Source of the DNA: Spisula solida
Lineage: Eukaryota > Mollusca > Bivalvia > Venerida > Mactridae
Length of the DNA: 64,000 nucleotides
Assembly: GCA_947247005.1 (NCBI GenBank)
Contig: OX365953.1
Location: forward strand, 4,469,001 to 4,533,000
Direction of reading: 5' to 3'
How positions within the stretch are numbered: position 1 is the first letter of the stretch; the number at the start of each line of letters is the position of its first letter. Positions 3,553 to 61,865 of this stretch are shown in pieces. The notes under the pieces are model-generated. The model worked only from the letters and a program-made list of their open reading frames with translations, did not search any database and was not told where the DNA came from. A program made the position numbers and the translations under genes.

Positions 3553-3822
3553 TTGCCAGCCGATGTAAATCAAATGTTGATAAAAAAAGGAAAAATAGCT
3601 ATGTTGAATAACATGAATATTACATGTAGGGATGATAATATTGAGGTCATCACCATGGTAACCGACGTAGATCTCGGCCACAGATTACCACAGAACTGTG
3701 ATCGACCCAATATATTAGAACAAAGCTATCTAAAAGAAGTCGTAAGTGACATCATAGGCCAAAATAACCTCCCACAGTTGAAACCAGGATTACGACTAAG
3801 ACGGCTAAGCAGACCAACATAA
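3553..3822 (+). other. Doubtful 89-codon open frame in the macro-repeat
   Basis: An open frame that begins at a TTG runs to a TAA at 3820-3822, and recurs at 16514-16783 (identical) and 29576-29845. It contains an in-frame ATG at 3655 in a strong context (ATCACCATGG), and a GTAAGT donor-like site near 3741. I recognise no family. In U3 the product differs at five residues while I see about one silent change, so there is no sign of constraint on the protein. It may be a chance frame or a decayed exon. I do not call it a gene. Confidence 0.2.
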
Positions 3823-4239
3823 TGATCTTCTTCTGCAAAGAGAGAAAAAACATGTACATGAATTATTTCATACAACAACGCAAGATTATTGAGGGCTATA
3901 TGTTCTAAGAATATTTATTGTATTAATTAAGAATGGGACAATTTTACAGAAAACCCTTAATTTTAAATCACACACAATTGATTTTACCTTGAAGACATCT
4001 GATTAAACGTGCGAAATAACAAATAGCATCAAATAGTCGATGAATAACACACCCTTTACAAAAAAAGCAATATTTGCATGCAAATAACCGAGCAAAAATG
4101 AAATAAAGTGCATTTCATACCGATATTGTGCTCGTGTGCGTATGTGACTCTGCCAGGATTACTGCCTGGTATCCAACTGCTGCTGTATGCTTGTCACATG
4201 ATCATATAGATTATAACGTCAATGTAGATAGTTAAATCC

Positions 4240-14900: not shown

Positions 14901-17900
14901 GCAATTCACAAGTATGATAACATTATCTTCTGGTGGTATTTTTAATTTTCAAACTTATTGGAATTAACAATAATCTTCCTTTAGGTGGTTATCCAACACC
15001 CAAGTTCCTTTGGCTCTATATAACTCATGTACAAATCATTTAGGTGACCGATGTAGAATTTGTTGTAACATTTCCATTACTCATGTGCGTTACAAAATAT
15101 GTTATAATTGAGTAAATAGACAATGCATCTTACACGGTTAGTTTGACCACATATTGTCCATAACTGAATCAATAATTAGCTGAATCTCCATTTCAAATAA
15201 AACGTTCTCAATACCCGGATGACAGCATGTATCCGTGGTGACGGAAGAAACGTTCTCCATACCCGATGAGCAAAAAGGGAACATAATGATCAACAAATTG
15301 AATTCTGGTAAAGTCGTATCTTGCATTTGCAACTAATCATTTATATTCAAGACTCGTTTGTACTATGGAATCACATTTTCACCACATGCATTAAACCACA
15401 GGAGTTTGTGACCAGAATATCTCCTTTTTTCGTAACAGACCCCTGTGGCATGGAGCCCCATTTATTCTGCTACATGTAAATTGCTACAAAATGCACAAAC
15501 ATCGTCTTTGAAAATGACATACAATGTATATGTGAGTACAATTGTTTAGGACAGAAATTTTATATTAAAATGATAAATCACTAGACACGTACACAGCATG
15601 TTGGTCCCCCGGCCCCGGGCCAATCATATCTCGGAATGTAAGAAATACATCATATATTTATGACACTCAATGAATAAAAAATAAACTGGCATAGCCGTAG
15701 AGTTTTCATATTTTCGGTTTGATATGAAAGCATAAATAATGTCTTATTGTCATATATGGTAAGTAAATATGACAAAATATACTGCTTCTACCTAATGAAA
15801 CCCAGACGTAATTAAAATCAAACACAATACGGCATAACAACTTATTACGAACTGCAAAACGAGAAAAGGGGCCAAATATACAAAAACCTATTTTTGCTCT
15901 CAGTTTTGAACTTTCAGCATAGATTGTTAGTTTTCTACGACATTTAACTAAATTTAAATGCAGTATGATTTACAGTTCTGAAATAACACTTGCAAATAAT
16001 GCATAATCCATTAAATCCAACATTTATTTTAGCGTCATTCATCTTATTCATCTTTATTTCATTGCAATGTCATACAGTCCCTTTTCTCGTGTGGCAGATC
16101 ATGTTTATAGCACATCTTATATGACTAAAATATTGGTCGGATCGTTTGATGTTTAAGTTCAGTCCCATTCTAACGCTTGAAATACTAGAATTCCTATGAA
16201 TCCCTGGTTCCGTTATCATTTCCCATGATGCTTCACTTTCAGACTCGCTATAATAATCACCATTAAACATATAGCACATCAGTCCTATACTATCAATCCG
16301 CAAAATGTTGTAGCCCCTTTACTTTATCCAGTGACTTATTTAATACATCCTCTACCATGGTCATAAATATCATTTATTTTCAGAAATCAATCAGATTGTG
16401 AGATTTTGCCAACCAAATACTACATAATTATACCCTTTCATCTACTGTGTACATACCTCATTACTTTATGAGGAAAACTCACTTTAATAAATTATAACAT
16501 TTCATACAAAATTTTGCCAGCCGATGTAAATCAAATGTTGATAAAAAAAGGAAAAATAGCTATGTTGAATAACATGAATATTACATGTAGGGATGATAAT
16601 ATTGAGGTCATCACCATGGTAACCGACGTAGATCTCGGCCACAGATTACCACAGAACTGTGATCGACCCAATATATTAGAACAAAGCTATCTAAAAGAAG
16701 TCGTAAGTGACATCATAGGCCAAAATAACCTCCCACAGTTGAAACCAGGATTACGACTAAGACGGCTAAGCAGACCAACATAATGATCTTCTTCTGCAAA
16801 GAGAGAAAAAACATGTACATGAATTATTTCATACAACAACGCAAGATTATTGAGGGCTATATGTTCTAAGAATATTTATTGTATTAATTAAGAATGGGAC
16901 AATTTTACAGAAAACCCTTAATTTTAAATCACACACAATTGATTTTACCTTGAAGACATCTGATTAAACGTGCGAAATAACAAATAGCATCAAATAGTCG
17001 ATGAATAACACACCCTTTACAAAAAAAGCAATATTTGCATGCAAATAACCGAGCAAAAATGAAATAAAGTGCATTTCATACCGATATTGTGCTCGTGTGC
17101 GTATGTGACTCTGCCAGGATTACTGCCTGGTATCCAACTGCTGCTGTATGCTTGTCACATGATCATATAGATTATAACGTCAATGTAGATAGTTAAATCC
17201 CTTGTGACGTCACAAGAACTTCAGACAATGTCTCTCAGCTGGGTAAGCTTCAATAAGTTCAATGATATGGTTGATGACACAAGGCCGGTTTAATGAAATC
17301 TGTGGCTATTTTTTGTGATCAAGGTCAGTTTGTCAAGGTCAAGGCAACAGTGCATTATAAAAGTTTAAAGTCAAGGTTACATTATGAACATCATGGTTAC
17401 TGTTTTTGCAAAGTCATTCACAAAAGATCATGCCAATTTAACTTCAAGGTCATATTGTGAAGGTCAAGGTTACTGTTTATTGTCGTTTTGTCTTTTGGTA
17501 TATTAAGAGTCATGATATGTTTATAGCTACCAGACAGCATTATGGTCAGTTTTTTTAAAGTTCAAGGTCAATAGCTACCTTTAAGGTCATCATTATGAAC
17601 CTTTAAGGCCTCGTTATTGTACTTGTGACCAGACTAGTCAATGATGTAAGTATATGGTAAGAAACAACAATCACAAAAGACTATCAAATTTTAATATAAC
17701 AAATACAACTTTATGTCACAAAGTATCACAATAAATCTAAAATGCGCAGAGGGTCAGAACTAAAACTGTCACACATTAAATATGTCAACATAATAGTAGC
17801 GCTATAAGCTAGCTTCGTTTCTAACAACAACCAACAGCACACTGTTTTCATGTAATCAGTTTACAATTACAGTAAGTAACATTGGATAAAAGTAAAAGTT

Positions 17901-27900: not shown

Positions 27901-30900
27901 CAAGTATGATAACATTTATGACACATGAAGTTTTAATATTTGGAATCTTCATAAGAATTATGCAATAATTTGTTTTTCAATGTTTATATTCTGGTGGTAA
28001 TTTCAATTTTCAAACTTATTGGAGTTAACAATTATCTTCCTTTAGGTGGCTATCCAACACCCAAGTTCCTTTGGCTCTATATAACTCATGTACAAATCAT
28101 TTAGGTGACCGATGTAGAATTTGTTGTAACATTTCCATTACTCATGTGCGTTACAAAATATGTTATAATAGAGTAAATAGACAACGCATCTTACACGGTT
28201 AGTTTGACCACATATTGTCCATAACTGAATCAATAATTAGCTGAATCTCCATTTCAAATAAAACGTTCTCAATACCCGGATGACAGCATGTATCCGTGGT
28301 GACGGAAGAAACGTTCTCCATACCCGATGAGCAAAAAAGCAACATATTGATCAACAAATTGAATTCTGGTAAAGTCGTATCTTGCATTTGCAACTAATCA
28401 TTTATGTTCAAGACTCATTTGTACTATGGAATCACATTTTCACCACATGCATTAAACCACAGGAGTTTGTGACCAGAATATCTCCTTTTTTCGTAACAGA
28501 CCCCTGTGGCATGGAGCCCCATTTATTCTGCTACATGTAAATTGCTACAAAATGCACAAACATCGTCTTTGAAAATGACATACAATGTATATGTGAGTAC
28601 AATTGTTTAGGACAGAAATTTTATATTAAAATGATAAATCACTAGACACGTACACAGCATGTTGGTCCCCCGGCCCCGGGCCAATCATATCTCGGAATGT
28701 AAGAAATACATCATATATTTATGACACTCAATGAATAAAAAATTAAACTGGCATAGCCGTAGAGTTTTCATATTTTCGGTTTGATATGAAAGCATAAATA
28801 ATGTCTTATTGTCATATATGGTAAGTAAATATGACAAAATATACTGCTTCTACCTAATGAAACCCAGACGTAATTAAAATCAAACACAATACGGCATAAC
28901 AACTTATTATGAACTGCAAAACGAGAAAAGGGGCCAAATATACAAAAACCTATTTTTGCTCACAGTTTTGAACTTTCAGCATAGATTGTTAGTTTTCTAC
29001 GACATTTAACTAAATTTAAATGCAGTATGATTTACAGTTCTGAAATAACACTTGCAAATAATGCATAATCCATTAAATCCAACATTTATTTTAGCATCAT
29101 TAATATAATTTATCTTATTTCATTGCAATGTCATAAAGTCCCTTATCTCGCGTGGCAGATCATGTTTATAGCACATCTTATATGACTAAAATATTGGTCG
29201 GATCGTTTGATGTTTCAAGAACAGTCACATTCTAACGCTTGAAATACTAGAACTCCTATGAATCCCTGGTTCCGTTATCATTTCCCATGATGCTTCAATT
29301 TCAGACTCGCTATAATAATCACCATTAAACATATAGCACATCACTCCAATACTATCAATCCGCAAAATGCTGTAGCCCCTTTACTTTATCCAGTGACTTA
29401 TTTAATACATCCTCTACCATGGTCATAAATATCATTCATTTTCAGAAATCAATCAGATTGTGAGATTTTGCCAACCAAATACTACATAATTATACCCTTT
29501 CATCTTCTGTGTACATACCTCATTACTTGATGAGGAAAACTCACTTTAATAAATTATAACATTTCATACAAAATTTTGCCAACCGATGTAAATCAAATGT
29601 TGATAAAAAAGGAAAAAATAGCTATGTTGATTAACATGAATATTACATGTAGGGATGATAATATTGAGGTCATCACCATGGTAACCGACGTAGATCTCGG
29701 CCACAGATTACCACAGAACTTTGATCGACCCAATATATTAGAACAAAGCTATCTAAAAGAAGTTGTAAGTGACATCATAGGCCAAAATAACCTCCCACAG
29801 TTGAAACCAGGATTACGACTAAGACGGCTAAGCATACCAACATAATGATCTTCTTCTGCAAAGAGAGAAAAAACATGAACATGAATTATTTCATACAACA
29901 ACGCAAGATTATTGAGGGCTATATGTTCTAAGAATATTTATTGTATTAATTAAGAATGGAACAATTTTACAGAAAACCCTTAATTTTAAATCACACACAA
30001 TTGATTTTACCTTGAAGACATCTGATTAAACGTGCGAAATAACAAATAGCATCAAATAGTCGATGAATAACACACCCTTAACAAAAAAGCAATATTTGCA
30101 TGCAAATAACCGAGCAAAAATGAAAATAAAGTGCATTTCATACCGATATTGTGCTCGTGTGCGTATGTGACTCTGCCAGGGTTACTGCCTGGTATCCAAC
30201 TGCTGCTGTATGCTTGTCACATAATCATATAGATTATAACGTCAATGTAGATAGTTAAATCACTGGTGACGTCACAAGAACTTTCAGACAATGTTTCTCA
30301 GCTGGGTAAGCTTCAACAAGTTATGAACATCAAGGTTACTGATTTTGCAAAGTCATTCATAAAAGATCATGCCAATTTAACTTCAAGGTCATATTGTGAA
30401 GGTCAATGTTACTGTTTATTGTCGTTTTGTCTTTTGGTATATTAAGAGTCATGATATGTTTATAGCTACCAGACAGCATTATAGTCAGTTTTATTAAAGT
30501 TCAAGGTCAAAAGCTACCTTTAAGGTCATCATTATGAACCTTTAAGGCCTCGTTATTGTACTTGTGACCAGACTAGTCAAGGATGTAAGTATATGGTAAG
30601 AAACAACAATCACGAAAGACTATCAAATTTTAATATAACAAATACAACTTTATGTCACATAGTATCACAATAAATCCAAAATGCGCAGAGGGTCAGAACT
30701 AAAACGGTCACACATTAAATATGTCAACATAATAGTAGCGCTATAAGCTAGCTTCGTTTCTAACAACAACCAACAGCACACTGTTTTCATGTAATCAGTT
30801 TACAATTACAGTAAGTTACATTGGGTAAAAGTAAAAGTTTTGCAACTAGCGTAGAAATGGAATATCTATACACCTAATGAAACAAAGAAATAAACATTGT

Positions 30901-43419: not shown

Positions 43420-43497
43420 CTAGGTCAGCGTTGTGAGTAATATAATTGCTAAGATAACAACTAGTACAACTACGCAAATAATGATCATTATGAGTTT
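43420..43497 (-). CDS. STX1: Syntaxin-1 last coding exon: transmembrane anchor
   Basis: An AG acceptor precedes position 43497. The exon gives 25 residues, KLIMIIICVVVLVVILAII followed by LLTTLT, then TAG at 43420-43422. It is the C-terminal tail anchor that places syntaxin in the presynaptic plasma membrane, and its IMIIIC opening is characteristic of the syntaxin-1 group. The phase is 0 and matches the preceding donor. The juxtamembrane pair usually KK is KL here, and only one cysteine is present where vertebrate syntaxin-1A has two adjacent ones. No second candidate anchor exon was found in the intron or downstream, although alternative anchors are known in other syntaxin genes. Confidence 0.93.
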   Translation of the reverse strand, partial: KLIMIIICVVVLVVILAIILLTTLT

Positions 43498-47776: not shown

Positions 47777-47887
47777 CCGCCGAGCACGACTTTGGTATTT
47801 CACAGCTTTTTTCGTGTCCATTTTGGCAGTTTCAACATAGTCCACGGCTTGTTCAACATTATATTCAATTCTGTCAATCATTTCACC
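47777..47887 (-). CDS. STX1: Syntaxin-1 exon: C-terminal half of SNARE motif
   Basis: The exon has 111 bases, phase 0 to phase 0. It encodes 37 residues from [18 protein letters not shown] through [19 protein letters not shown], aligning with syntaxin-1A 227-263. This is the membrane-proximal half of the SNARE helix plus the basic juxtamembrane stretch. The acceptor is TTGATTAG before 47887, and the donor is GTTAGT after the codons for ARR. VETAK replaces the vertebrate VERAV, while the TKKAVKYQS block is unchanged. Confidence 0.97.
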
Positions 47888-49226: not shown

Positions 49227-49364
49227 CTGTTGTTCCACCAACATGGCCATATCCATAAACATATCATGGAGTTCTTGTATACTTTTCTCTAATTTCATAA
49301 TATCCGCATGGCGTGCTTCTATATCGGCTAAAGTCTGTTTGGCTTGCTGTGTCTCCATAATAAT
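49227..49364 (-). CDS. STX1: Syntaxin-1 exon: N-terminal half of SNARE motif
   Basis: The exon has 138 bases, phase 0 to phase 0, and gives 46 residues. It runs [20 protein letters not shown], then a stretch ending [16 protein letters not shown], and aligns with syntaxin-1A 181-226. The last codon, CAG, is the central ionic-layer glutamine (Q226), the hallmark of Qa-SNAREs. The acceptor is TTTGCAG and the donor GTAAAG. The [14 protein letters not shown] block is nearly invariant in the family. Confidence 0.97.
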
Positions 49365-51469: not shown

Positions 51470-51543
51470 ATCTTGCGTAAAAACTTGTAAGTTTCCTGAC
51501 TCCAGCATATCTTCCAGCTCATCATTGGTTGTGGTTTTACCAG
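51470..51543 (-). CDS. STX1: Syntaxin-1 exon: linker before SNARE motif
   Basis: The exon has 74 bases and enters in phase 1: its first two bases complete a threonine codon with the preceding exon's final A, whichever alternative exon is used. It encodes GKTTTNDELEDMLESGNLQV then FTQD, aligning with syntaxin-1A 157-180. It includes the LE pair (165/166 in rat) whose mutation opens the closed conformation. The acceptor is CTTTCAG and the donor GTAAGT. Confidence 0.96.
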
Positions 51544-52448: not shown

Positions 52449-52844
52449 AGCGGGATAATTAACTTAATTTATGATAGTAAGGGAGATAATTTCATTAACT
52501 TATGACAGTAAGGGAGATAATTTCATTAACTAATGACAGTAAGGGAGATAATTTCATTAACTTGTGGCATGACATAATTTCCTTAACTTATGTCATTAAG
52601 GGAGATACTTTCATTAACTTATGACAGTAAGGGAGATAATTCCTACAACTTTTGACAGTAAGGGAGATAATTTCATTAACTTTTGACAGTAAGGGAGATA
52701 ATTTCATTAACTTTTGACAGTAAGGGAGATAATTTCATTAACTTTTGACAGTAAGGGAGGTAATTTCTTGAGATAATTTCCTTAACATTTGAGACTCAGT
52801 GAGATAGTTTTCTTAACTTATGACAGTAAGGGAGATAATAGTTT
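52449..52844. repeat. 31-bp minisatellite (AAGGGAGATAATTTC), about 12 copies
   Basis: The unit is AAGGGAGATAATTTCATTAA followed by CTTTTGACAGT or CTTATGACAGT. The central copies are nearly identical and the edges are degenerate. It runs directly into the 24-bp array. Confidence 0.88.
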
Positions 52845-53776
52845 TGTTACTATGACCTTGACTGGATGTGTTACAGTGATCTTGACTAAGTTTTTTTACT
52901 GTGTCCCAGACTAGTTGTGATACTGTGAAGTTGACTAGTTGTGTTACTGTGACCTTGACTAGTTGTGTTACTGTGACCTTGACTAGTTGTGTTACTGTGA
53001 CCTTGAATTAGTTTGTTGCTGTGAACTGGACTTAATTTTTTTACTGAGCCCCAGACTAGTTGTGATATTGTGACCTTGACTTGGTTTGTAACTGACCTTG
53101 ACTTGGTTTGTAACTGTGACCTTGACTTGGTTTGTAACTGTGACCTTGACTTGGTTTGTAACTGTGACCTTGACTTGGTTTGTAACTGTGACCTTTACTA
53201 GTTTATTACTGTGACCTTGACTAGTTTCGTTACTGTGACCTTGACTAGTTTTGTAACTGTGACCTTGACTAGTTTTATTACTGTGAACTTGAATAGTTTT
53301 ATTACTGTGACCTTGACTGGATATGTTACTGTGACCTTGACTAGTTTCATTACTGTGACCTTGACTTGGTTTATAACTGTGACCTTGACTAGTTTTGTTA
53401 CTGTGACCTTGACTAGTTTTATTACTGTGAACTTGACTGGATATGTTACTGTGACCTTGACTAGTTTCGTTACTGTGACCTTGACTAGTTTTATTACTGT
53501 GACCTTGACTAGTCTTGTTATAGTGACCTTGGCAAGTTTCTTTGCTGTGATATTGCCTAATTTAATTTCTATGAGCTTCACTTGGTTTGTAACCGTGACC
53601 TTGACTACCTTTGTAACTGTGACCCTGACTACCTTTGTAACAGTGACCTTGACTACCTTTGTAACCGTGATCATGACTTACTTTGTAACCGTGACCTTGA
53701 CTACCTTTGTAACCATGACCTTGACTTCCTTTGTAACCGTGACCTTGACTACCTTTGTAACCGTGACCTTGGTCAC
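52845..53776. repeat. 24-bp minisatellite (CTGTGACCTTGACTAGTTTT), about 38 copies
   Basis: The unit is CTGTGACCTTGACTAGTTTT plus GTTA. Sub-blocks carry CTTGGTTTGTAA or CTACCTTTGTAAC variants in clusters, showing local expansions. Because 24 is a multiple of three, long open frames appear on both strands (plus 53211-53816, minus 53198-53674). They are repeat artefacts. On the minus strand, the syntaxin sense strand, most units contain TCAAGGTCA, the extended half-site of NR5A/ERR nuclear receptors. Confidence 0.95.
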
Positions 53777-58616: not shown

Positions 58617-59190
58617 TTTCTGTTTCTGGACAAAGGGAGGTAAATATTGTAATTACCAGCCTATGCCATCATACTACAAAGGGAGGTAAATCTGGTACCA
58701 GCCAATGCTACATAATGACAAAGGGAGGTAATTACTGTCAATACTAATATTCCTATAACTGTATTGCCTTTAACACTCCCTAATCACCATAAAGGAGGGT
58801 AAACCATCTAAATATTACTTATTTAACACTCCCTAATCACCTTCATAAAGGGAGGTAAACCATGTATAGCTTACTTATTTAACACTCCCCAATCACCGTT
58901 AAGGATGGTAAACTATGTAAATATTACTCCCTAATCACCATAAAGGAGGGTAAACCATCTAAATTTCACCTTATTTAACACTCCCTAATCACCATAAAGG
59001 AGGGTAAACCATCTAATTTTCACCTTATTTAACACTCCCCAATCACCATAAAGGAGGGTAAACCATCTAAATTTCACTTAATTAACATTCCCCAATCACC
59101 GTAAAGGAGGGTAAACCATCTAAATTTCACTTATTTAACACTCCCCAATCACCTTCATAAAGGGAGGTAAACCATGTATAGCTTACTTAT
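58617..59190. repeat. ~54-bp minisatellite running into a splice donor
   Basis: A looser AAAGGGAGGTAAAT repeat (58617-58740) is followed by about eight units. These contain AACACTCCCTAATCACC, ATAAAGGAGGGTAAACCATC and, in most units, TAAATTTCACCTTATTT. Two copies instead carry CCATGTATAGCTTACTTATT, and one of these (around 59172-59192) overlaps the donor and last bases of the exon at 59187-59295. Confidence 0.85.
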
Positions 59191-59295
59191 TTCCAGCTGA
59201 CGTTGTATTCTCCCTTTGCACCTCTCACGGTAGTCTATCTGACAGGCATTGTAATCATTCATTACCTCGACAAATTTACGTGATAATGTAGCGTG
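59187..59295 (-). CDS. STX1: Syntaxin-1 alternative exon B (Hc helix end / linker)
   Basis: The exon has 109 bases, entering in phase 0 and leaving after the first base of a threonine codon. It encodes [36 protein letters not shown], aligning with syntaxin-1A 120-155. The acceptor is TGTCATAG and the donor GTAAGC. This is the end of the Hc helix of the autoinhibitory Habc domain and the start of the linker that contacts Munc18 and Munc13; the RIQRQ segment is present. It is closer to the vertebrate sequence than exon A ([22 protein letters not shown]). It is paired with exon A 2.5 kb upstream in transcript order, and inclusion of both would create an early stop. Confidence 0.96.
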
Positions 59296-60329
59296 CTATG
59301 ACAGAAAGAAAAACAAAGAAAATGAAACAGAATTGTTAATAAATTGTGAACAAAGACACAAAATTAACTATTGAACTTTGTACATAATACAAATAAAATG
59401 CAAAATGCAAGAAAAACTGTCAAAAGTATTAACTTAAGACTCAATACAAATAACTCAACTGACCAAAAATCAGCATCACATTCAATAGGTCACACAAATT
59501 CTGTGAACCCAACATCAAAACTGACAAGTTCTTGACAAACAGTAACATCCAAAAATCTCTATTGTTTAACAGAACAAATAGCATTCGTTAATACAACAAA
59601 AACAAGAATTATTTGTCAAAACACATATGCCCCTCTTAATAGCCACTAATAATAGTAATTGCATGCAGGTCCCTCATAGCAACCTGTAACTTACAGATCC
59701 AAGAAAAAGATATAGGGGGATAACAACTATAGTGCGCCCAGGATAGTGTGATATTTATAAACATGAATCGGTTTGGCAAACTGTTGCAAAATGTGTTTTA
59801 CAATTGACTAAAGTAAACAGATAACTTAAGGTGAGTATTGTACTCAAAACATCACTGATAAATCGTACACATCTGATTAATGCCCCTTTGTGGAATACAC
59901 CAAATTTTCCTGCCTTTCTTATTATCGTGGGAGCACTATAATTGCATGCAGGTCCCTCATAACTAACTCCAAGAATTTAGGTATAGGGGGTATGGTCAGT
60001 TGTAACTGATAACTAAGCTTGACAGACATTCCACACCAAGCATTCTTCAGTAATTCATGAGAAATGATTGCCAGTGGCTCTGTCTGTGATATCTTGACCT
60101 TTAACCTACTGGTCCACATTACAGTTTAGTTTATCTACAGTCCACAGGCAATCACTATATGAAATTTCACAGCCATGTGCTTGGTGGCTCTGTTTTTATT
60201 GATCTGAAATAGATTCCAGACTGAGGTCACTTGAGGCTTTAGTTTCATCAACTTTTCACAGTAATATGTCTAACACAGGCAATTGACCGCTACTGGTCAA
60301 ATAACCTTTAAAGTAAAATACGGAATTAT
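59296..60329. other. Intron between the two alternative exons
   Basis: The stretch has two similar ~50-base segments (GCATGCAGGTCCCTCATA near 59662 and 59944), probably diverged copies of a dispersed element. No exon was seen. Confidence 0.45.
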
Positions 60330-60417
60330 GCAGTGGGCCAGATGGGGTTCAATCTCTTGACCTGAAAGTGTAGTGAGCACCCTACCACTAGGCCACATCC
60401 GCTCCCCTCAGTCCCGG
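60330..60417 (-). mobile_element. tRNA-like segment, possible SINE head
   Basis: The minus strand contains GGAGCGGATGTGGCCTAGTG. TGGCCTAGTGG matches the polymerase III A box, and a GATTGAACCCC stretch lies about 40 bases on, where a T-arm would be, though the B box is poor. It is not a functional tRNA; a diverged tRNA-derived SINE is the likely explanation. Confidence 0.4.
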
Positions 60418-60600
60418 ATAGAAAGTAACCTGGTCGACAGACCAACATGTGCAAAATGATATACCCTATCTTCTTTGAAGAGAGGGCATAATAAATAAAT
60501 CTGTCAGTGGAAATTCTCCTGCATAACATTCTTAATGATTTCAGAAACAATCTTACAGTTTTATAGTTTTAAATTCAATATTGCACCAAGTTAAACTGTA

Positions 60601-61218
60601 AACAAGAGCACCGCCTTGCGGGTGCAGACGCTCATCTGATCATTGTCACTGTAATAAAGGCCCATTCCCCTTGCATAAAGTAAGGCAGTGTTATGCGTTT
60701 TAGTTAAACAAGTGAGGTATTGATGGTGAAAAAAGGAGCAACAACTCTTGCAAAATGCAGATCACAGTTTTGTGTCATGCTTGACATGGTCAGGTATTGA
60801 TGGTGAATAAGTGTTGAAAGCTTCAAAGCAATAACCTACATAGAGTATGAGAAAAGTGGACCTAAACACAAAACTTAACCAAGGAATTTTCTGAGTCCAA
60901 AAAGGGGCAATAACTCACGAAAAATGCAAATCAAGAGTTATGGTTCTTGCTTGACATGGTCAGGCATTGATAGTGAACAAGTGTTGAAAGTTTCAAAGCA
61001 AATACTCTGATCGTTTACAAAATGCAGATCAGAGTTATGGGTCTTGCTTTACAGGCTCAGGTATTGATGGTGAACAAGTGTTGCAAGTTTCAAAGCAATA
61101 GCTTTGAAAGTTTTTGAAACAAGTTTACCTAAACACAAAACATGCAACGCCGACGCAGACGACGATCAAGTGATGACAATAACTCATCTTTTTTTCAAAA
61201 ATCAGATGAGCTAAAAAA
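60601..61218 (+). mobile_element. Pearl-like element, GCTCATCTGAT family
   Basis: It begins AACAAGAGCACCGCCTTGCG, whose GCACCGC/GCGGGTGC forms a hairpin, then GCTCATCTGAT. It ends ATCAGATGAGCTAAAAAA, the exact inverse of that arm. The interior repeats a CAGGTATTGATGGTGAA / AAGTGTTGAAAGTTTCAAAGC segment three times and carries a GCCGACGCAGACGACGATC tail. It lies between the alternative exons. Confidence 0.75.
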
Positions 61219-61756
61219 TGAATACTCCTGAAATTGTGTAAAGTTTTGGGAAACTGGAATTTTCAACAATTTAAATTGTCATTCATCATCAACTGCACAT
61301 GGGTTACAGAACTGACGGAACATTTGAAAACACTACAGGGGGTATCTGTCATTGTTTAATGTTTATTATTTGTTTTATTATTCTCAATAACACTGTTTTC
61401 CCAAAATCTTACCGCAGGAGATGTCATATCTTAGGGCACCCAGTTATTCAGATTCTGCTGATAAATTCATGATGGCATTACTTTTATTCACACCTGTTTG
61501 TTAGCTTACCACTTAAGACTATTTCACAAAATATTTAATAAATATGAAATCAAAATTCTGATATAATTAAGAATTTAAAAAATATTTTTTTTACAATATT
61601 GTTAAACAGGAGAATCCCACATCTGTTTTTTTTTTTTTGCAAATTGATCGAATAAAAACATGTGCATGCTTATTTTTGGTCATGCTCCTACTGAATACAG
61701 TCTATATCTATAGTTGCCATGACGGCATGTTGTGTCACACGCCCCATACTCCTTAC
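61219..61756. other. Intron next to alternative exon A
   Basis: AT-rich, no recognised element. The donor side of exon A has no minisatellite, unlike exon B. Confidence 0.5.
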
Positions 61757-61865
61757 TGATTTCAATTTGTCGCTGTATCCTAGCTTTACATCTGTCTCTA
61801 TAGTCAATTTGTGCGGTGTTGTAGCAATTCATGGTCTCGACAAACTTACGAGAAATTGTCGAGTA
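61757..61865 (-). CDS. STX1: Syntaxin-1 alternative exon A (Hc helix end / linker)
   Basis: The exon has 109 bases, with the same entry and exit phases as exon B. It encodes [36 protein letters not shown], aligning with syntaxin-1A 120-155. The acceptor is TTTTCTAG and the donor GTAAGG. Twenty-six of 36 residues match exon B. The changes include Y/H at the first position, T/V and C/D on the Hc helix, TA/AC before QIDYR, and A/G in the linker. The frame is fully open and the conserved core (SRKFVE, QIDYR, RCK, RIQRQ) is intact, so it is not a pseudo-exon. Tandem exon duplication with mutually exclusive use is inferred. Confidence 0.94.

Follow-up and report, generated by a model that had tools for sequence, protein, structure and literature searches.

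Results

A single syntaxin-1 gene and its exons

The window, a stretch of 64,000 nucleotides from the bivalve Spisula solida, carries on its minus strand a syntaxin-1 gene from exon 6 onward; the host contig measures 49.3 Mb in a genome of 932 Mb. When the window was examined together with 60 kb on the upstream side of the gene, coding exons 2 to 10 were recovered; a simple pattern search of the same region (window plus 60 kb) gave no match for exon 1. Exons 2 (111529-111449), 3 (101896-101797), 4 (77561-77487) and 5 (65717-65644) lie outside the window, all on the minus strand, their positions being given in window numbering continued past its end. Inside the window, on the same strand, are 2 versions of exon 6, here called 6A (61757..61865) and 6B (59187..59295); their constitutive partner, the 74-bp exon 7 (51470..51543); and exons 8 (49227..49364) and 9 (47777..47887), which encode the first and second parts of the SNARE motif. 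Alternative last exons complete the gene: exon 10a (43420..43497), with an open frame to its stop and encoding a membrane anchor, and 3 copies of exon 10b, of which copy 1 (29775..29855) also encodes a membrane anchor and copies 2 and 3 lie at 16713..16793 and 3752..3832, all on the minus strand. A tandem duplication of about 13 kb at window positions 1-37700, with pieces 94.5-99.7% identical, carries exon 10b. By genome search the contig holds 5 consecutive copies of this exon, 2 of them to the left of the window, and these may represent either a recent amplification of the anchor exon or an effect of assembly. In the intron between 6B and 7, positions 52454-53771 show offset self-matches of 79-80% identity and contain open frames of 204 aa (plus strand) and 189 aa (minus strand).

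The identity of the gene is clear from its domains and from its closest structures. Both the 6A and the 6B isoforms score above the cut-off for Pfam Syntaxin (PF00804, Habc) and SNARE (PF05739), and the anchor exons are in frame, giving the Habc, SNARE and C-terminal anchor layout of a syntaxin-1. The nearest solved chains, 9 with E up to 1e-60, all belong to syntaxin-1A or squid s-syntaxin, and the Munc13-docking residues R151 and I155 are encoded by both versions of exon 6. Searching the whole genome with each exon 6, at E up to 10, returned no copy beyond 6A and 6B, and exon 9 had 1 strong match (4.3e-17) and 2 weak ones (E 0.2 and 0.33) in the 932 Mb. Since exon 6 is found in 2 places only and exon 9 has a single strong match, the genome contains one syntaxin-1 gene, not two. 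These searches rule out the alternative, named alongside the original prediction, that 6A and 6B belong to separate genes on a misassembled contig.

Two versions of exon 6, predicted to be mutually exclusive

Coordinates, splice sites and translation confirm the original prediction of two 109-bp exons on the minus strand with AG/GT sites, matching phases and 26 of 36 residues identical; the entry phase is 0 and the exit phase 1. Both sit between exons 5 and 7 and have AG acceptors and GTAAG donors: exon 6A (61865-61757) has the acceptor TTCTAG and the donor GTAAGGAG, exon 6B (59295-59187) the acceptor TCATAG and the donor GTAAGCTA, and an intron of 2461 bp (59296..61756) separates them. The 6B peptide is of the canonical type (HATLSRKF...RQLEI), the 6A peptide of an alternative, derived type (YSTISRKF...RQIEI) differing at 10 of 36 residues; both align, with no gap, to rat syntaxin-1A residues 120-155, the syntaxin-1A positions originally claimed. 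The two are thus adjacent, homologous, equal in length and phase and equipped with good splice sites, as expected of tandem-duplicated exons. As 6A is the second-best match to 6B over the whole genome with E = 5.6e-12, a chance resemblance is excluded. The nucleotide sequences differ at 35 of 109 positions, with 9, 4 and 22 differences at codon positions 1, 2 and 3, respectively; dN is 0.20 and the script returned no dS value. We read the missing dS as saturation, which would suggest an old duplicate under protein constraint.

Splicing in silico shows what the two exons permit. Joining 5-6A-7 or 5-6B-7 leaves the frame open through the last exon. Because each exon is 3n+1 nucleotides long, including both or neither breaks the frame: in 5-6A-6B-7 a TAA stands as the seventh codon past the join, 89 nt ahead of the 6B-7 junction, and in 5-7 a stop falls within exon 8, the next exon of the SNARE motif. 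Both outcomes had been foreseen, and in silico neither double inclusion nor double skipping is productive, the pattern expected of mutually exclusive exons.

A-type and B-type exons in other species

Scored on exon 6 of the A isoform only, a search covering 5.8 billion proteins returned 26 of 26 candidates, and a second one with the A-type protein P0017 as query returned 59 of 59. In the two combined, 60 of 62 proteins have an A-type exon; the other 2, P0025 and P0026, are fragments without the start of the exon. Named sources include the bivalves Mercenaria, Ruditapes, Dreissena, Mya, Mizuhopecten and Argopecten/Pecten, as well as Octopus, Argonauta, Lottia, Lineus, Dimorphilus, Watersipora, Intoshia and Macrostomum; among parasitic flatworms there are many trematodes, some monogeneans and one cestode. 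Scallops were absent from the first search and Macrostomum was its sole flatworm; the P0017 search added scallops, trematodes, monogeneans and the cestode. We take these sources to belong to Mollusca, Nemertea, Annelida, Bryozoa, Orthonectida and Platyhelminthes, all of them spiralian phyla. Arthropod, nematode and deuterostome names do not occur among the 62 proteins, several of which are nameless and all of which come from a five-residue-word search that can miss diverged forms. Other bivalves, gastropods and cephalopods had been proposed as the place to look for the second exon, and the protein database indeed contains it in related species, in A-type proteins of clams, scallops, Lottia, Octopus and Argonauta.

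The B isoform gave 2806 matches from 2808 candidates. Among the best 120 of these 2806, a simple pattern finds His as the first exon-6 residue of all 119 proteins that were new, vertebrates and sea urchins included. The clam 6B peptide is identical at 36 of 36 residues to proteins of, for example, Lineus, Mya, Dreissena and Magallana, and the top identity of 6A is 94%, to the A type of Ruditapes. Oysters, mussels, Lymnaea, Biomphalaria, Elysia, Lingula, Owenia and Helobdella appear with B alone among the matches listed. All 31 of the trematode, monogenean and cestode matches (P0151-P0181) have the A-type exon; if these flatworms have no B exon, A became their only form. Taken from database proteins, this distribution indicates that in many lineages one member of the pair has been lost, has diverged or lacks annotation. 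The partial Macrostomum protein P0146 has an A exon joined to part of a B-like exon, so B may persist there. As a separate observation, the Rotaria syntaxin models P0028-P0032 contain 2 successive exon-6-like stretches with a short intron-like spacer, neither of A type, perhaps a separate or strongly diverged exon pair. Anopheles dirus P0027 was rejected as an exon pair; its high score came from repetition of the whole N-terminal part of the protein model.

Isoform pairs and probable transcripts

Five isoform pairs could be compared: Dreissena P0004/P0051, Mizuhopecten P0147/P0067, Argopecten-Pecten P0148/P0066, Octopus P0009/P0068 and Lineus P0019/P0034. These proteins and their names are products of automated annotation. 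Within each pair the lengths are equal, 8-12 of the 36 exon-6 positions differ and no position differs elsewhere, and both members are listed with the same longest contig size. Two genes would not give such a pattern; differences confined to exon 6 in 5 pairs point to one gene with a mutually exclusive exon. Mutual exclusivity of 6A and 6B, as originally predicted for the part of syntaxin-1 covering Hc and the start of the linker, would thus be strongly supported by these annotated pairs, together with the frame logic of the clam gene. In Mya both types are present, and the A-type model differs outside exon 6 too. The order A before B is seen at the DNA level in 2 sources only, the clam window and P0001. 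The latter, an open frame on a 1,750-bp contig, reads through an A-type exon, 71 intron-like residues and a B-type exon; Ser-Lys follows each exon, as A|GTAAG would encode, and the A-B intron would be about 212 nt long.

The full-length A-type proteins P0012, P0013, P0014, P0016, P0017 and P0018 lie on contigs 1.0-1.6 kb long. Since introns like those in the window would not fit such contigs, these 6 probably represent spliced RNA. P0013 and P0014 are 94.5% and 95.2% identical, respectively, to the octopus protein. The isoform pairs and the short contigs with full-length A-type proteins would both speak against transcripts that never use one of the exons. Different anchors are found on A-type proteins of Octopus and on P0017 and P0018, which differ at 3 of their first 262 positions; in Mya the B type occurs with 2 anchors. 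The choice of exon 6 thus appears to combine with the choice of anchor.

Age of the pair and residues that distinguish the types

An unrooted tree was built on 36 columns from 44 exon peptides, hand-chosen from 181 database proteins and the window (22 A rows, 16 B rows and 6 that are neither). A branch with support 99/98, present in 99% of 200 bootstrap trees, sets all 22 A rows on the same side, so that in this small, hand-chosen and unrooted set the A types group as a single old duplication would have them. Branching within A departs from species order, with Intoshia beside clams. The B rows are not separated from the 6 rows of neither type, which is expected if B is the ancestral type. The simplest reading of these peptides would be one duplication before the phyla split, followed by losses.

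At positions 120, 121, 123 and 137 (rat numbering) the 22 A and 16 B rows, drawn from several phyla, do not overlap. Position 120 is Y in 21 A rows and C in 1, and H in all 16 B rows; 121 is S in A and A in B; 123 is I in A and L in B; and 137 is A or T in the A rows and C in the B rows. At position 153, all but one of the 22 A rows have M or I, and all 16 B rows have L. Of the 22 A rows, 10 carry K136 and 13 carry K150; clams lack both, and in the A rows listed for clams and Lottia some residues are B-like (Q150). R151 and I155 are kept in 44 of 44 rows.

Discussion

We propose that a tandem duplication gave one syntaxin-1 gene its exons 6A and 6B, that the pair has come down from an early spiralian ancestor, and that it is mutually exclusive, each syntaxin-1 mRNA taking one of the two. 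That they are a genuine exon pair in actual use we regard as nearly certain. The choice would exchange residues 120-155 (rat), a stretch comprising the greater part of the Hc helix and the beginning of the linker, where the Munc13-docking R151 and I155 lie. These two residues interact with the MUN domain of Munc13 and are needed for Munc13 to open Munc18-bound syntaxin-1, according to the parts of the reports considered here (PMC8728020; PMC13398699). The swap retains this docking pair and alters the residues surrounding it: both forms would keep the helix, R151 and I155, and would differ at the neighbouring positions 120, 121, 123 and 137 and in almost every case at 153. In AlphaFold models, the two Dreissena isoforms show the same helix at residues 113-158 of the Dreissena protein, with block means of pLDDT of 84-92 for 111-150 and 71-72 for 151-160; the likeness is weak evidence, as the models have pTM of 0.45 and 0.46 and share an alignment that mixes both types. 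On these models the A and B forms should fold alike and differ in their contacts, and from this we infer graded behaviour toward Munc18 and Munc13. Most likely the two forms would grade the Munc18-bound closed state, and its opening by Munc13, at two levels selected by cell or state, with the choice between 6A and 6B presumably regulated. It is plausible that the swap tunes Munc13- and Munc18-dependent opening, or release, which the original prediction supposed to be tuned at the synapse by cell type or state. The complete proposal, an ancient exclusive pair that gives graded Munc18/Munc13-dependent opening, is the explanation we favor, with confidence a little above an even chance.

Alternatively, the pair may divide types of secretion, B being neuronal and A serving non-neural secretory or developmental roles, or the reverse, so that the swap would govern partner choice and not graded opening. 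The available text on the anchor isoforms of C. elegans UNC-64 (PMC4946901) and on syntaxin 3A/3B (PMC11476516) describes isoforms that divide by tissue, and A and B each occur with more than one anchor, which would fit such a division. Nothing in the data counts against the idea; the swapped segment is the Munc13-docking region, which fits tuning at least equally well. We think the division unlikely, though worth serious attention. A further alternative is that the pair controls the amount of syntaxin-1: regulated missplicing, taking both exons or neither, would yield unproductive mRNA and less protein, and the differences between the two peptides would matter little. Both exons are of 3n+1 length and both faulty products have early stops, as this would need, but at 4 positions the 22 A rows and the 16 B rows, which come from several phyla, have no residue in common, which argues that the protein difference is kept by selection, and we consider control of amount distinctly improbable as the main role. 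It is scarcely credible that 6A is dead or goes unused, or that misassembly or a second gene creates the appearance of a pair: assemblies can contain false tandem copies, for which nothing at the clam locus speaks, but 6A has an open frame and splice sites, the genome searches show one gene, its sequence is 94% identical to Ruditapes A, A followed by B recurs in the independent contig of P0001, and A-type exons in proteins of other species, with 5 isoform pairs, rule out a dead exon.

The graded-opening pair that we favor has its nearest analogue in layout in exons 5a/5b of vertebrate SNAP25, likewise an old, obligate choice between tandem homologous exons in a plasma-membrane SNARE; in the parts of that work considered here, the SNAP25 pair differs at 9 of 39 residues, compared with 10 of 36 for clam 6A/6B, and covers the palmitoylated cysteines and membrane targeting, whereas clam exon 6 covers Hc and the Munc13-docking linker (PMC2581893). 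The clam pair is not a member of that system, since the gene is syntaxin-1 and the animals are others. Human tandem duplicated exon substitutions are also alike in that one of two homologous tandem exons is used and that they are mostly conservative and ancient; the words "syntaxin" and "STX" are absent from the main texts of the 2 papers (PMC9741552; PMC5740500). Among syntaxins, the text available on C. elegans unc-64 and mouse syntaxin 2 describes splicing that alters the C-terminal anchor, not residues 120-155; these anchor isoforms have their like in the alternative anchors 10a/10b of the clam gene, and splicing of syntaxin 16 affects the N terminus (PMC4946901). Vertebrate syntaxin 3A/3B/3C are likewise isoforms made by exon choice: in the portion considered, 3A and 3B have exons 1-8 in common and diverge in exons 9-10, the C-terminal half of the SNARE motif and the anchor, and 3C differs from 3B in one exon, so that a mid-protein variant is possible there (PMC11476516). 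As far as these portions go, reported splicing of syntaxin-1 type genes alters the anchor or the SNARE end, and the Habc-linker part is treated as fixed. The original prediction knew of no earlier description of a syntaxin-1 exon 6 pair, and we likewise found none among the open-access papers listed, judged mostly by titles and the starts of abstracts.

A conserved swap in Hc and the linker would offer naturally occurring variants for finding out which residues near R151/I155 set the step from closed to open. It may also represent an unstudied layer of release control in the neurobiology of octopus, clam, ribbon worm and flatworm. With SNAP-25 as the parallel case, both plasma-membrane SNAREs would carry duplicated exons, each in its own branch of the animals. 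In its widest form, our view is that a splicing switch dating from before the spiralian phyla split, placed in the Munc13-docking helix of synaptic syntaxin-1, sets opening and priming for each cell type and is the separately evolved counterpart of SNAP-25a/b; we offer this tentatively, at somewhat under an even chance.

For how double use of the exons would be prevented, the simplest guard is the frame itself together with decay: an mRNA including both exons, with its stop 89 nt before the junction, should undergo nonsense-mediated decay. Steric exclusion by too short an intron is ruled out by the 2461 bp between 6A and 6B. No complementary word of 14, 16 or 18 nt is shared among introns 5, 6 and 7 in a search for perfect words, as docking/selector RNA pairing might leave, and none of 8 regulator motifs in 4 flanks survives correction for 32 tests; GCATG downstream of 6A, the only one to stand out, was seen 2 times against 0.29 expected (p 0.03 uncorrected) and fails that correction. 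The pyrimidine fraction of the acceptor is lower in 6A (0.65) than in 6B (0.85); since constitutive exon 7 also has 0.65, the lower fraction in 6A tells little. Directly 3' of exon 6B lies a minisatellite-like array (window 59186-58840, minus strand), which about 312 nt downstream of 6B repeats the context of the 6B donor, AAATAAGTAAGCTATACATGG, and could act as a decoy 5' splice site.
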